A DNA stretch of 64,000 nucleotides from Cellulomonas gilvus ATCC 13127 (GTDB lineage: Bacteria > Actinomycetota > Actinomycetes > Actinomycetales > Cellulomonadaceae), in assembly GCF_000218545.1 (NCBI RefSeq), contig NC_015671.1, positions 186,001 to 250,000 of the forward strand, given 5' to 3'. The position numbers and the translations under genes were made by a program. The notes beneath the pieces are model-generated. The model saw only the letters and a list, made by a program, of their open reading frames with translations, did not search any database and was not told the DNA's origin. Every line of letters starts with the position of its first letter. The stretch's first letter is position 1. Shown piece after piece: positions 237 through 5,231 of the stretch.

Positions 237-923
237 GTGACCCGACCGACCCGCACCGCACCCGGAACCCGCACCGCCGCCCGCACCGCCGCCCGCACCG
301 CGCACAGCTCCGCCGGCGGCGCCGCGGTGCCCGGAGGCGTGCTGGCGGCCTCGCAGGCCCACGAGCGGGCGAGGCAGCGCCGGCGCAGGTGGCGGGTCGG
401 GTGGGGCGTGCTCGTCGCGCTCGTGCTCGCGGTGGGGGTGAACCAGGCCGCACGCGTGGCCGCCGATGCCGTCGGACCGCAGGGGGGTTCGACGGCGGGC
501 GACCGCACGCACGGCGACGGCACGTCCGGCGGCGAGCATGCCGCGACCGGGCTCGACCCCGAGCTCGAGCGGCGGTTCGCCGCGGCGCAGGACGCCGCCG
601 CGGCCGACGGCGTCACGCTCGTGCTCAACTCCGGCTGGCGCTCGGCCGACGAGCAGCGCCGCATCGTGCGGGACGCCGTCGACAAGTACGGCAGCGAGCG
701 CGAGGCGCACCGCTGGGTCCTGCCCGCCCGGCACTCCGCGCACGTGCAGGGCCTCGCGGTCGACGTCGGCCCGCCCGAGGGCGCGCAGTGGCTCAGCGAG
801 CACGGCGAGGCCCTGGGGCTGTGCCGCACGTACGAGAACGAGCCGTGGCACTTCGAGCCGCTGCCGGCCGGCGCCGACACGTGCCCCCCGATTCACCCCG
901 ACTCGTCGTGGGGCTGGTCGTAG
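237..923 (+). CDS. M15 family D-Ala-D-Ala carboxypeptidase (VanY-like), membrane anchored
   Basis: Predicted zinc carboxypeptidase that trims the terminal D-Ala of peptidoglycan stem peptides outside the cell; 228 residues from the GTG at 237. An Ala/Arg/Thr-rich cytoplasmic segment is followed by one hydrophobic anchor (GVLVALVLAVGV, about residue 60), then the catalytic domain. The M15 signature SAHVQGLAVDVG (His and Asp zinc ligands) and the later EPWHFE motif (general base and third ligand) are both present, as is the upstream GWRS motif. The frame stays open to position 27, but the first 70 codons are low-complexity and cover the palindromic upstream region, so the internal GTG is preferred. 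It stands alone, with the TerD gene 69 bp downstream. Confidence 0.82.
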   Translation: MTRPTRTAPGTRTAARTAARTAHSSAGGAAVPGGVLAASQAHERARQRRRRWRVGWGVLVALVLAVGVNQAARVAADAVGPQGGSTAGDRTHGDGTSGGEHAATGLDPELERRFAAAQDAAAADGVTLVLNSGWRSADEQRRIVRDAVDKYGSEREAHRWVLPARHSAHVQGLAVDVGPPEGAQWLSEHGEALGLCRTYENEPWHFEPLPAGADTCPPIHPDSSWGWS

Positions 924-979
924 CACCCGGCTGGCGGAGCGCTGCGGGTGAACTTCCCGTGAGCCGCCGACGGCGGCTC

Positions 980-985
980 TAGCAT
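980..985 (+). promoter_or_regulatory. -10 element TAGCAT, leaderless start of the TerD gene
   Basis: TAGCAT ends 7 bases before ATG 993 and no ribosome binding site is visible. This favours ATG 993 over the in-frame ATG 984, which would lie inside the -10 element. Confidence 0.45.
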
Positions 986-992
986 GCCCCGC

Positions 993-3122
993 ATGGACGA
1001 GATCGTTCTGCGCAAGGGGGCCAACTGCGAGGTCCCGTCCGAGGTGGAGAGCCTGCAGGTCGTGGTGGCGTGGGACGAGCCGGACGGCGAGGTCGACGTG
1101 GATGCCGCGGCGCTGCTGCTCGCGGGCGACCGTCGAGTCCGCTCGGACGCCGAGTTCGTCTTCTTCAACCAGCCCGCGTCACCCGACGGCTCGGTCCGCC
1201 TGGTCGGACGTTCGAGCACCGAGTCGGGCTCGCACGAGCTGGTCCGGATCGACCTCGTCAGGATCGACCCGGAGGTGGACTGCGTCGCGGTCACGGCGAG
1301 CCTCGGAGACGGGGACTTCGGTTCGCTCGCGGGCCTGCGCCTGCGGATCCTCGACGCCGGGGGTGAGCCGCTCGCGAGGTACGACATCGACGACGCCGAC
1401 GCGGAGACGGCGTTCGTCTTCTGCGAGGTCTATCGACGCGGCCCCGGCTGGAAGGTGCGCGCTGTCGGGCAGGGGTGGGACTCCGGCCTCGCGGGCCTGG
1501 CGTCCGACTTCGGCGTCACCGTGGACGACGGCGTCGACAGCGACGTGCCACCCGTCGACGACGCACCGCTCGGCGAGGAGGCCGACGGCGCCGTCGTCCA
1601 GGTCGATGCCGCCGAGGCCGAGCCGTCGCTCGTCGAACCCGTGGACGGCGTACCGGACGAGAGCCTCGATCCGGACGGCGTCGCGCAGGTGATCGAGTTC
1701 CCGGCGACGCCGACCGGGCGCGTGCGCCCGACGCGCCCGCGTCCGGGCGTGCGGACCAGCAAGCGCGCCGCCGTCGTCGTCAGGCCACCGCGGCTCAAGC
1801 TCGCGGGCGCCGAGACCTGGCAGCCGTCGCGTCTGTTCTCCATCTCCGGTGTCGGCACCGCCGAGGAGCAGGAGAAGCGTGCGACCTCCGCACTCCTCGC
1901 CACGGTCATGGCAGTTCCCGCCTTCGGGCGCGCACTCAGCGCGCGGTTCGGGGCGCCAGCGGGACCTGTCGAGACGTTCCTCGAGGTGCCCTTCGGTCTG
2001 GGGGAGTCGACTGTCTACCCCGACGGGGTGCTGCGCGTCGCGCGCGGCGGGAAGCTGTGGACGGCCGTCCTCGAGGTCAAGACGGGTAGCGGACAACTCC
2101 TCAGGGAGCAGGTCGAGCGCTACCTCGACGTCGCGCGGCAGGAGGGCTACGACACCGTCGTGACCCTCTCCAACGAGATCGCGGCACATCCGGGCGAGCA
2201 CCCGGTGCTCGTGGACAAGCGCAAGCTGCGCCGAGCGACGTTGACCCACATCTCGTGGGCGGAGGTGCTGCACGAGGCGAAGTTCACGCTCCACCACCGC
2301 GGCGTCGGCGACCCCCTGCAAGCCTGGATCCTCCACGAGTTCATCCGCTACATCGAGCACCCGCGCTCAGGAGCCGCGACCTTCGAGGACATGGGTCCGT
2401 CGTGGGTGCCCGTCAGGGAGGCGATCCACGCAGGCACGCTTCGTGGGAGCGACAAGAAGGTTCCCGCGGTCGCGGCGGCGTGGGTACGGCTGGTGCGGCA
2501 CCTGTGCCTCCGCCTCAGCAGCGATCTGGGCGTCAACGTCGTCCCGTCCGTCGCGCGCAAGCTTGCCGGTGACCCGGCTGCTCACGTGCAGTCGATCGTC
2601 ACGCGGCTGGCATCGGAGGGTGCCCTCGAGGCGGTCATCAAGGTCCCGCTCGCCGCTGGGCCGTTGACCGTCACGGCCGACCTGCGCACCTCTCAGGTCC
2701 GGACGTCGGTCGCGGTCCGCGCGCCCCAGGAGGGCAACGGGCAGCGGCGGATCGCGTGGCTCCTGCGCCAGCTGAAGGACGCGCCCGACGCGCTCCTCGT
2801 CGAGGCGGTGTTCGCGGCGCGCACCGAGACGGCGTGCGAACAGCTGAAGGACGTGCGCGACAACCCGACGATGCTCCTGCCCGACAGGGGCGTGGAGATC
2901 AGCGCGTTCCGGCTCTCGCTCGCCAGTGCCATGGGGACCAAGCGGTCCGGCCAGCGAGGCGCTTTTGTGCCGAGCGTGACGAGTGCGGTGGAGGCGTTCT
3001 ACTCGTCGGTCGTCCAGCCGCTCAAGGCCTGGCAGCCGGCAGCGCCCAAGCTGTCCGAGGACGTCGAGAGCGAGGCGATCGAGACGCAGGAGAGCGAGGT
3101 CTCCGACGAGGCGATCTCGTAG
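993..3122 (+). CDS. TerD domain fused to a PD-(D/E)XK nuclease-like domain
   Basis: A 709-residue protein with three parts. Residues 1-180 are a TerD-family stress domain: AWD...VDVDAAALLL, EFVFFN, SPDGSV, ARYDIDDADAETAFVFCEVYRR and AVGQGWDSGL all match the family. The acidic loop that usually binds calcium (TG-G-GDDE type) reads STESGSHE, so metal binding may be reduced. An acidic, Pro-containing linker follows to about residue 270. The C-terminal part holds YPDGVLR, then LEVKTGSGQLLREQVERYL, which fits the D, ExK and Q positions of a PD-(D/E)XK nuclease (about residues 343-375), and then some 300 residues I do not recognise. TerD proteins are known from tellurite and stress-response systems linked to DNA processing; the nuclease activity here is inference. 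ATG 993 is chosen because TerD proteins start close to the xxIxLxKG motif. Confidence 0.8.
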   Translation: MDEIVLRKGANCEVPSEVESLQVVVAWDEPDGEVDVDAAALLLAGDRRVRSDAEFVFFNQPASPDGSVRLVGRSSTESGSHELVRIDLVRIDPEVDCVAVTASLGDGDFGSLAGLRLRILDAGGEPLARYDIDDADAETAFVFCEVYRRGPGWKVRAVGQGWDSGLAGLASDFGVTVDDGVDSDVPPVDDAPLGEEADGAVVQVDAAEAEPSLVEPVDGVPDESLDPDGVAQVIEFPATPTGRVRPTRPRPGVRTSKRAAVVVRPPRLKLAGAETWQPSRLFSISGVGTAEEQEKRATSALLATVMAVPAFGRALSARFGAPAGPVETFLEVPFGLGESTVYPDGVLRVARGGKLWTAVLEVKTGSGQLLREQVERYLDVARQEGYDTVVTLSNEIAAHPGEHPVLVDKRKLRRATLTHISWAEVLHEAKFTLHHRGVGDPLQAWILHEFIRYIEHPRSGAATFEDMGPSWVPVREAIHAGTLRGSDKKVPAVAAAWVRLVRHLCLRLSSDLGVNVVPSVARKLAGDPAAHVQSIVTRLASEGALEAVIKVPLAAGPLTVTADLRTSQVRTSVAVRAPQEGNGQRRIAWLLRQLKDAPDALLVEAVFAARTETACEQLKDVRDNPTMLLPDRGVEISAFRLSLASAMGTKRSGQRGAFVPSVTSAVEAFYSSVVQPLKAWQPAAPKLSEDVESEAIETQESEVSDEAIS

Positions 3123-3143
3123 CGAGCTCGGGTCCGGGCTGGT

Positions 3144-3149
3144 CCTAGA
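3144..3149. repeat. Left target-site duplication CCTAGA of the IS481 element
   Basis: CCTAGA directly precedes the left terminal repeat and is repeated at 4265-4270 directly after the right one. It fits the NCTAGN target and 6-bp duplication known for IS481. Confidence 0.85.
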
Positions 3150-4152
3150 TGTTCCGGCTCATGAGGTTGGTGACGCCTGCGTGGAGGCGTGAGGCCGGGG
3201 GCTGGTTGCCGGCGGCGGTGTGGCAGCGATGGTAGTTGTAGTGGACGTTCCAGATCTTGATCGCTGCGGCCCGCTCGGCCTCGGAGGTCCAGATGCGGGC
3301 GTAGAGGAGTTCCTCGGCCAGGATCCGGTTGTATCTCTCGACCTTGCCGTTGTGCCGGGGAGTGTGCGGACGGATCCGCTGGTGACGCGAGGCGAACGCG
3401 GTCACCGTCCGGGTGAACGCCTTGGCGGTGTAGTTCGCGCCGTTGTCGGTGACCACCCGGACCAGCCGGTTGATGCCGTGGGCGGCGAAGAACGCCCGTG
3501 CCCGGCAGAAGAACCCGATCGTGGTCGCTGCCTTCTCGTCGGGCAGGTGCTCGGTGTAGGCCAGTCGGGAGAAGCCGTCGACGGCGGAGTGCAGGTAGAC
3601 GTAGCCGGCGCGGGCGCCCTTGGTCTTGGCCCGCTGGGCGGCCTTGTCCGCCGCTGAGCCGCGCCCGTGAGCGCGCCAGCCGCCGCCATCGGGGATGCGC
3701 CCGACCTTCTTGACGTCCAGATGGACCATGTGACCGGGGTAGCGGGCGGTGATGCGGCCCGCGGTGCGGTTCATCGACCCGTCGGGGTCGATGTCGCGGC
3801 GCCGGCTGATGCCCAGGCGGACCAGCCACCGCCCGACGGTCGCGACCGAGACCTGGTGCCCGCGGCGGACCAGCTCGAGGTGGATCGCCCGGGCCGACCA
3901 CTTGTGCTCCCGGCGCCACGTCTCGATCAACGCGACCAGGTCGGGCTCGAGCTGGGTCGGGGACGCGTGAGGGACACTCGCCCGGTCGGCCAGCCCGACC
4001 TCGCCCAACTCGTCGAACCGGGCCTTCCACTTCGACAGGCACTGCCGAGAGATGCCCGCCTCGGCAGCGACGTGAGCGATCGGTCGGTGGGCGCAGCGGC
4101 GCACGAGCCGCAGCCGCCCTTCGGGGGTGAACGGGGCGTTAGCGTGGCTCAT
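3145..4152 (-). CDS. IS481-family transposase
   Basis: A 335-residue DDE transposase. An N-terminal helix-turn-helix segment (HVAAEAGISRQCLSKWKARF, about residues 28-47) is followed by an rve integrase core. The catalytic triad is visible: Asp in VHLDVKK, Asp in VVTDNGANYT and Glu in NGKVERYNR. The last codons run through the left terminal repeat and the TAG stop lies in the flanking CCTAGA duplication, so the target DNA supplies the stop codon. Length is normal for the family and no frameshift is seen. The start ATG is 86 bp inside the right terminal repeat. Confidence 0.93.
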   Translation of the reverse strand: MSHANAPFTPEGRLRLVRRCAHRPIAHVAAEAGISRQCLSKWKARFDELGEVGLADRASVPHASPTQLEPDLVALIETWRREHKWSARAIHLELVRRGHQVSVATVGRWLVRLGISRRRDIDPDGSMNRTAGRITARYPGHMVHLDVKKVGRIPDGGGWRAHGRGSAADKAAQRAKTKGARAGYVYLHSAVDGFSRLAYTEHLPDEKAATTIGFFCRARAFFAAHGINRLVRVVTDNGANYTAKAFTRTVTAFASRHQRIRPHTPRHNGKVERYNRILAEELLYARIWTSEAERAAAIKIWNVHYNYHRCHTAAGNQPPASRLHAGVTNLMSRNI

Positions 4153-4264
4153 CGAGGGGTAGGTCCTTCGCGCAGCAGTTGGTTGGTCGCACTTCCATCC
4201 TGCCGCCGGGGCCTACCCCTCCCTCACACCCCCAGCCGCGTCACCAACCTCATGAGCCACAACA
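3150..4264 (-). mobile_element. Complete IS481-family insertion sequence, 1115 bp
   Basis: The ends are near-perfect inverted repeats: 3150-3176 starts TGTTCCGGCTCATGAGG and the complement of 4238-4264 starts TGTTGTGGCTCATGAGG, matching at 25 of 27 positions. Both flanks carry CCTAGA (3144-3149, 4265-4270). The single intact transposase gene fills the element on the minus strand. Intact ends, intact transposase and a perfect duplication suggest a fairly recent insertion. It separates the TerD gene from the phosphotransferase gene without disrupting either coding sequence. Confidence 0.92.
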
Positions 4265-4270
4265 CCTAGA
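4265..4270. repeat. Right target-site duplication CCTAGA of the IS481 element
   Basis: Perfect copy of 3144-3149. Its CTA is also the complement of the TAG stop codon of the phosphotransferase gene, so the insertion fell exactly on that stop and regenerated it. Confidence 0.85.
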
Positions 4271-5231
4271 CGCCGAGCTCGTCGAGGGCGCGCAGCAGGT
4301 TGCCTCGGTTCGCGGAGTCGTACTCCGCCACCCAGTCGCCGGTGTAGGCGCGGGGCGCGATCTCGACCGTCATCACGAGCGCGAGCCACATGCGGGCCAG
4401 CAGTAGCCGCGCGGCACCGGACGGCGAGGTGAGGTCGAACGAGTCGTCGAGGTCCAGGCCGGGCCCGTCCCACATGGGGTCGGCGCCCACCACGTCGACG
4501 AGCGGGTCGCCCCACAGCGCGCGCTCGGGGTCGATCACGCCCGTGAGCGCGCCCGTGACGGGGTCGACGAACAGGTTGCCGGGCCACAGGTCGGAGTGCA
4601 CGAGGCGGGGCTCGGTGACCTCGTCGAGCGCGGCGCCGTGGCGGTCCAGCGCGGTGCGGATGCGATCGGCCGGGACGTCGACCGACCACCGCTGCGCGTC
4701 GGACAGGAGCGCCTCGACCATCGCGGTCAGCGCCCCGCGCCACGTGTCCGCCTGCAGCGCGGGGGACTGCGGGTAGCCGAACGTGGTTCCGGTGACCGCG
4801 GCGAACCGGCCGATGAGCGCCGCGAGGTCCCCGTGCGCTCGTGCCGTGCGTGGGTCCAGGCCGGCGGGGCCGAAGCCGGCGTCCTTCCACGGCACGCCGT
4901 CCAGGTGGGCCGCGACCACGACGTCCCCGCCGACCACCTCACGCGTGAAGTCCTGGTGCAGCAGCCGCGGGAGCAGGAGGTCCGGGTGCTCCGCGCCCAG
5001 CGCGTACACCTCGGCCTCGGTCCGCAGCAGGTCGTGCTCGTGCGTGAGGAGGCGGCCGGTGGCCACGGGTGCGGTCTTCACGACGACGCGCGTCCCGTCC
5101 TCGAGCGTGACGCGGTACGTCGTCGCGAACAGGCCGCCCTCGAGGCGGGTCGCGTCGGCCAGCGTCCCCAGCGGAGCGACCAGCCTGGTCAGGGCGTCGA
5201 GCGGGAGGTCGGGTGCGGCGTCGTCGGGCAC
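4266..5231 (-). CDS. Phosphotransferase family protein (APH/fructosamine kinase-like)
   Basis: A 321-residue small-molecule kinase of the APH/choline-kinase fold. The N-lobe lysine is in RVVVKTAP; the HRD-like catalytic loop reads LVHSDLWPGNLF and the metal-binding Asp is in GVIDPERALWGDP. The HxDLxxGN form and the following VIDPERA are typical of fructosamine kinase and aminoglycoside-phosphotransferase relatives; the substrate cannot be read from sequence. The GTG start at 5231 is preceded by TAGGCT plus six bases. The TAG stop lies within the IS481 target duplication, and the protein is complete. The MFS gene ends 10 bp upstream, but this gene has its own promoter-like element. Confidence 0.8.
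   Translation of the reverse strand: MPDDAAPDLPLDALTRLVAPLGTLADATRLEGGLFATTYRVTLEDGTRVVVKTAPVATGRLLTHEHDLLRTEAEVYALGAEHPDLLLPRLLHQDFTREVVGGDVVVAAHLDGVPWKDAGFGPAGLDPRTARAHGDLAALIGRFAAVTGTTFGYPQSPALQADTWRGALTAMVEALLSDAQRWSVDVPADRIRTALDRHGAALDEVTEPRLVHSDLWPGNLFVDPVTGALTGVIDPERALWGDPLVDVVGADPMWDGPGLDLDDSFDLTSPSGAARLLLARMWLALVMTVEIAPRAYTGDWVAEYDSANRGNLLRALDELGV

Follow-up and report, generated by a model that had tools for sequence, protein, structure and literature searches.

A predicted PD-(D/E)XK nuclease with an N-terminal TerD domain, encoded by an accessory gene of Cellulomonas gilvus

What would a protein do in which a TerD domain is joined to a nuclease? The question was raised by an open reading frame in a window of 64,000 nucleotides, which corresponds to bases 186001-250000 of the single-contig, 3.53 Mb genome of Cellulomonas gilvus and has a GC content of about 74% locally. 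The frame is genuine and encodes a protein of three parts, namely a TerD domain, an acidic and then basic linker, and a conserved module of about 430 residues (Table 1). Residues are numbered according to the 709-residue form. An earlier reading of the DNA alone (the sequence-only reading) had described a clear TerD domain, a long acidic linker and the motifs YPDGVLR and LEVKTGSGQLLREQ of a PD-(D/E)XK nuclease-like region. The TerD domain and both motifs were recovered in the present analysis, and the acidic part of the linker contains 19 Asp or Glu and no Lys or Arg. The conserved module had no match in Pfam, NCBIfam, PHROGs or PADLOC, and a profile search with the C-terminal part alone, which the sequence-only reading had proposed as a check, returned no match in these libraries and no relative among PDB sequences. 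The family is as yet undescribed in annotation libraries.

Table 1. Positions in the window of the TerD-nuclease gene, its domains and its flanking features.
Feature	Position	Strand	Details
VanY/M15-type peptidase gene	339..923	+	left flank of accessory insertion
TerD-nuclease open reading frame	984..3122	+	709 aa from start at 993; 712 aa from alternative in-frame ATG at 984
TerD domain	1002..1511	+	residues 4-173; degenerate Ca2+-ligand positions; Pfam PF02342, E = 1.7e-43
Linker	1524..1778	+	acidic residues 178-242, then basic residues 243-262 with VRTSK motif
PD-(D/E)XK nuclease domain (predicted)	1824..2363	+	residues ~278-457; AF2 model, structure matches, invariant residues
Active-site codons	2022..2081	+	D344 2022-2024, E361 2073-2075, K363 2079-2081; invariant in 76/76 homologs
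YbjN/T3S-chaperone-like domain (likely)	2370..3047	+	residues ~460-685; AF2 alone, pLDDT 88; structure matches
IS481-family element	3145..4269	-	beside the gene, not part of the protein; 32-bp inverted ends
APH/fructosamine-kinase-like (phosphotransferase) gene	4266..5231	-	right flank

The TerD assignment was made with the Pfam profile (148.7 bits against a curated cut-off of 25.3) and by comparison with PDB sequences (3ibz, 7.5e-32; 2kxt, 1.1e-26). In Klebsiella TerD, Ca2+ is bound by residues 40-42, 78, 79 and 89, and by residues 29, 82, 84 and 88 (PMC8779313). Positions 78, 79, 82, 84 and 88 are altered in the window TerD and in fused homologs. D78 was replaced by R, K, T, S or N, and N79 was altered, in 29 of the 29 fused homologs compared, and the G82/G84/D88 region was shortened or altered with loss of D88. 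The full set of ligand positions of a canonical Ca2+-binding TerD was found neither in the window TerD nor in the fused TerD domains, whereas four canonical TerD domains encoded in the same genome keep it. Because most of the ligand positions have been lost, the metal signal that the sequence-only reading had offered as a possible input is unlikely. The fused domain shares profile and sequence with canonical TerD and TerE of ter operons (KP-TerD, 2KXT), but differs from them in these positions and in lying outside any ter operon.

No ter gene adjoins the TerD-nuclease gene, as had been noted from the sequence, and the ter cluster of the genome lies about 525 kb away. This ordinary cluster, at 713-717 kb of the genome (L001-L005), consists of four TerD genes and a gene for a TerC-like membrane protein. 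Other TerD domains were observed in the same genome. One stands behind a DEDDh/RNase_T exonuclease and a BRCT domain at about 554 kb (L007 1474-3285, minus strand) and is of a degenerate subtype. At 3.285-3.287 Mb (L003/L008), a double-TerD protein precedes a TerD protein that is extended by a long stretch at its C-terminus; the part of this stretch that was read had no Pfam match and appeared putatively ATPase-like by eye. Two of the three TerD domains at 3.29 Mb are degenerate as well.

The conserved module was modelled with AlphaFold2 (AF2) using an alignment of 11 sequences as input (pLDDT 84, pTM 0.82; model residue = protein residue minus 262). In the model, D344 (model residue 82) directly precedes strand 83-89, E361 and K363 (99 and 101) lie where strand 92-100 ends, Q373 (111) lies where helix 109-122 begins, and E294 is within the first helix. 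The predicted order of secondary-structure elements is that of PD-(D/E)XK nucleases and matches many entries of the superfamily. For the nuclease part, VIA-align ranked AF1548 first (Z 8.8, rmsd 3.3, 115 aligned), followed by FokI, AspBHI, EcoT38I, BspD6I, MspJI, Card1, Can2, McrC, BamHI and Hjc (model residues 16-195), with Z-scores that are moderate and reach at most 8.8. Foldseek gave probabilities of 0.95-1.00 to several PD-(D/E)XK entries for the nuclease half, but with E above 1e-3. Single homologs weakly matched VRR_NUC, Tox-REase-7 and TnsA_N.

Residues E294, R296, E331, P343, D344, E361, K363, Q373 and Y377 were invariant in 76 of 76 homologs, as scored over 77 aligned rows wherever a letter was present. 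The motif is not a chance one, since these homologs span about 35-78% identity. The set of active-site residues is intact, and D344, E361 and K363 occupy the proper strand positions of D...(D/E)xK in the model. A PD-(D/E)XK fold is thus well supported by modelling, and its active-site motif by the alignment. The nuclease-like domain proposed from the sequence stands up on both points on which it had been staked, the predicted model keeping the nuclease core and the catalytic residues not varying among homologs; of its residue numbers, E361 and K363 are right and D343 should read D344. Fold and active site are common to the protein and the superfamily (AF1548-like, type IIS, modification-dependent and McrC-type members), from which TerD-nuclease differs by belonging to no Pfam, NCBIfam or PADLOC family, by a distinct C-terminal domain and by the TerD domain in front.

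About 300 C-terminal residues had been called unrecognised. This is true of the libraries, but structural comparison divides the region into the end of the nuclease fold and a likely YbjN/T3S-chaperone-like domain. Residues 453-685 were folded alone by AF2 (pLDDT 88, pTM 0.84), and the top structure matches were mostly YbjN or T3S chaperones (Z 5.0-7.4), including YbjN 6VU7 (Z 7.4), 2PLG, Spa15, AmyR, ExsC, SicP and SycE. 1YB3 and 2A8E (Foldseek 8e-4) were matched as well. The fold is likely rather than proven, because the Z-scores remain below 8. While this likely fold would be common to the domain and to YbjN/T3S chaperones (YbjN 6VU7, AmyR, Spa15, DR1245), the domain has no detected sequence similarity to them, is fused to a nuclease and has extra N-terminal helices. 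The Deinococcus protein DR1245, homologous to YbjN and T3S chaperones, crystallised as a dimer and binds the SSB-like protein DdrB (PMC3575483), which suggests by analogy a role in dimerisation or peptide binding for the C-terminal domain.

Residues 280-709 were used as the query in homolog searches. Within the same family, 22 of 200 genomes had a homolog (8 of 25 genera); the figures were 57 of 394 for the class (23 of 138 genera) and, in a profile search, 19 of 396 for the phylum. The distribution of homologs over Actinomycetota is patchy, and the nearest named ones are from Cellulomonas. Most are chromosomal; others come from large plasmids of Rhodococcus and Streptomyces (11 records), some of them mobilizable. 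Phage and viral collections yielded no homolog at the sensitivity used, which speaks neither for nor against defence.

Two forms were distinguished, a stand-alone form of ~440-480 aa, starting with M-x-EESWHEARLIPTSGI..., and a TerD-fused form of ~670-760 aa. A single branch separated them in each of two trees (SH-aLRT 97 and 95). All deep-branching homologs of the rest of the phylum were stand-alone, with the root resting on an outgroup picked by the analyst. The stand-alone form is probably ancestral on this comparison, and the one-branch split together with the stand-alone deep branches fits a single gain of TerD. The tail after the folded domain contains SSQD in 38 of 38 stand-alone actinomycete homologs (e.g. 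L035, L036 and L037) and in 0 of 21 fused ones, the linkers of which carry VRTxK-type (16) or VTT(K/R)K (5) motifs instead. Deeper stand-alone homologs have no SSQD within their last 60 residues. No genome with both forms was found, but only about two were expected by chance (an estimate), so mutual exclusion is not claimed.

The position of the gene was compared between genomes. In the related genome G155, the VanY/M15 peptidase and phosphotransferase genes are 3 bp apart (L161 1491-1495); in the window, the same junction (923-4266) holds 3,342 bp with the TerD-nuclease gene and the IS481-family element, and in genome G161 it holds different genes. The TerD-nuclease gene is therefore an accessory insertion at a variable junction. 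At its outer end, the IS481-family element shares bases with the stop codon of the gene for the kinase-like protein. Over 56 loci no conserved operon partner was found, and recurring neighbours were generic or due to synteny among close relatives.

Defence genes were found near some homologs. On Rhodococcus plasmid pLP337 the order is a SIR2 protein (PDC-S65), cyclase, E1-E2, JAB, NucC, a two-gene pair and TerD-nuclease, so that TerD-nuclease lies in one array with a type II CBASS that includes NucC; on Rhodococcus pRZP3 it is followed downstream by a CBASS operon that likewise has a cyclase and NucC. The pair and TerD-nuclease recur jointly on pR8L1 at 84-87% identity. The pair found directly upstream of TerD-nuclease on Rhodococcus plasmids encodes a coiled-coil protein and, as its second member, a BnzB-like protein (L077 6688-9026; L043 6635-8973) and is possibly a Bunzi-like defence system. 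One further homolog locus contains MzaC/MzaD-like genes. In a PADLOC scan at 1e-10, 86 families were matched among 143 neighbour proteins and 7 among a simple control set of 113 proteins, a difference that is not taken as proof, because the matches come from few loci and from many overlapping models of the same few proteins, some of them generic. Outside the Rhodococcus plasmids the association with defence is weak. TerD-nuclease itself matched no described anti-phage family in PADLOC at E up to 1.

With a probability of about 0.5, the protein is a conditional DNA endonuclease in a single polypeptide, of the kind used in biological conflicts, and is regulated by its TerD and chaperone-like domains. 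The unchanging catalytic residues, together with a gene that some genomes have and others lack, point to a probable conditional nuclease, perhaps one for defence. The PD-(D/E)XK domain would be the catalytic part, as its predicted fold and conserved active site indicate. The fold of the C-terminal domain suggests that it would most likely dimerise the enzyme and/or grip a linear peptide, and so either hold the enzyme off or dock it on a target. The TerD domain, apparently added once to an older stand-alone nuclease, would be a ligand- or protein-binding regulator and probably no Ca2+ sensor. In view of the complementary distribution of the SSQD tail and TerD, it may stand in for a trans partner that the stand-alone form would recruit via this tail. 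Given that the gene is accessory and patchy, keeps no particular neighbours and occurs at a variable junction in the chromosome as well as on large plasmids, the most likely role would be in conflicts with foreign DNA, where the protein would work alone as a defence or abortive-type nuclease. A wider proposal is tentative, and we would bet against it rather than for it: that the family comprises new Actinomycetota single-gene conflict nucleases with a chaperone-fold gate, in which the trigger input was swapped once, from a partner in trans recruited through the SSQD tail to a metal-independent TerD in cis.

The same patchy accessory distribution, with the empty junction in a relative, the large plasmids and the lack of a repair-gene neighbour, argues against a stress-induced nuclease that repairs or processes damaged DNA of the cell itself and is linked by TerD to the chemical-stress response. 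We consider this unlikely, while giving it some weight for the exonuclease-BRCT protein fused to TerD in the same genome, for the partnership of DR1245, which has a fold like that of the C-terminal domain, with SSB-like DdrB in Deinococcus (PMC3575483), and for the chromosomal location of most homologs, without defence neighbours. This last location, and the absence of a linked antitoxin, partition or transfer partner at the 56 loci, make it improbable that the nuclease serves a plasmid or mobile element, in maintenance or in the exclusion of rival elements, as the 11 plasmid records (mobilizable ones included) and the IS element adjoining the window gene might suggest.

Some nucleases of the Card1/Can2 type cut RNA too, and Card1 and Can2 are among the structure neighbours; these neighbours are mostly DNA endonucleases, however, and RNA in place of DNA as the substrate is judged quite improbable. 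A nuclease fold without catalytic activity, used for binding only, is hardly credible, with every catalytic residue invariant in all 76 homologs, down to ~35% identity.

According to PMC3710099 and PMC11090510, the latter of which treats TerY-P, Anantharaman et al. (2012) proposed a coupling of TerD with DNA processing and restriction. Later papers regard TerD as a domain that may sense by binding a ligand, and mention an anti-phage system that has McrBC and depends on TerD (PMC3710099, PMC7159879, PMC7824862). The conditional nuclease favoured here has the coupling of TerD to DNA processing in common with the Ter-dependent stress and DNA-processing systems, to the extent that the proposal of Anantharaman et al. 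(2012) is cited, but has no adjacent ter genes, TerY-P or McrBC. Its architecture was not found in the literature searched, a scope outside of which Anantharaman et al. (2012) lies.

It has long been asked what TerD domains sense or do. The natural joining of TerD to an apparently intact nuclease, with a surviving stand-alone relative, makes possible a direct test of activity with and without TerD, ligands and the SSQD tail. If the family is defensive, it would add to the known systems a single-gene one that is not yet listed and that soil actinobacteria commonly carry (present in 57 of the 394 class genomes sampled).
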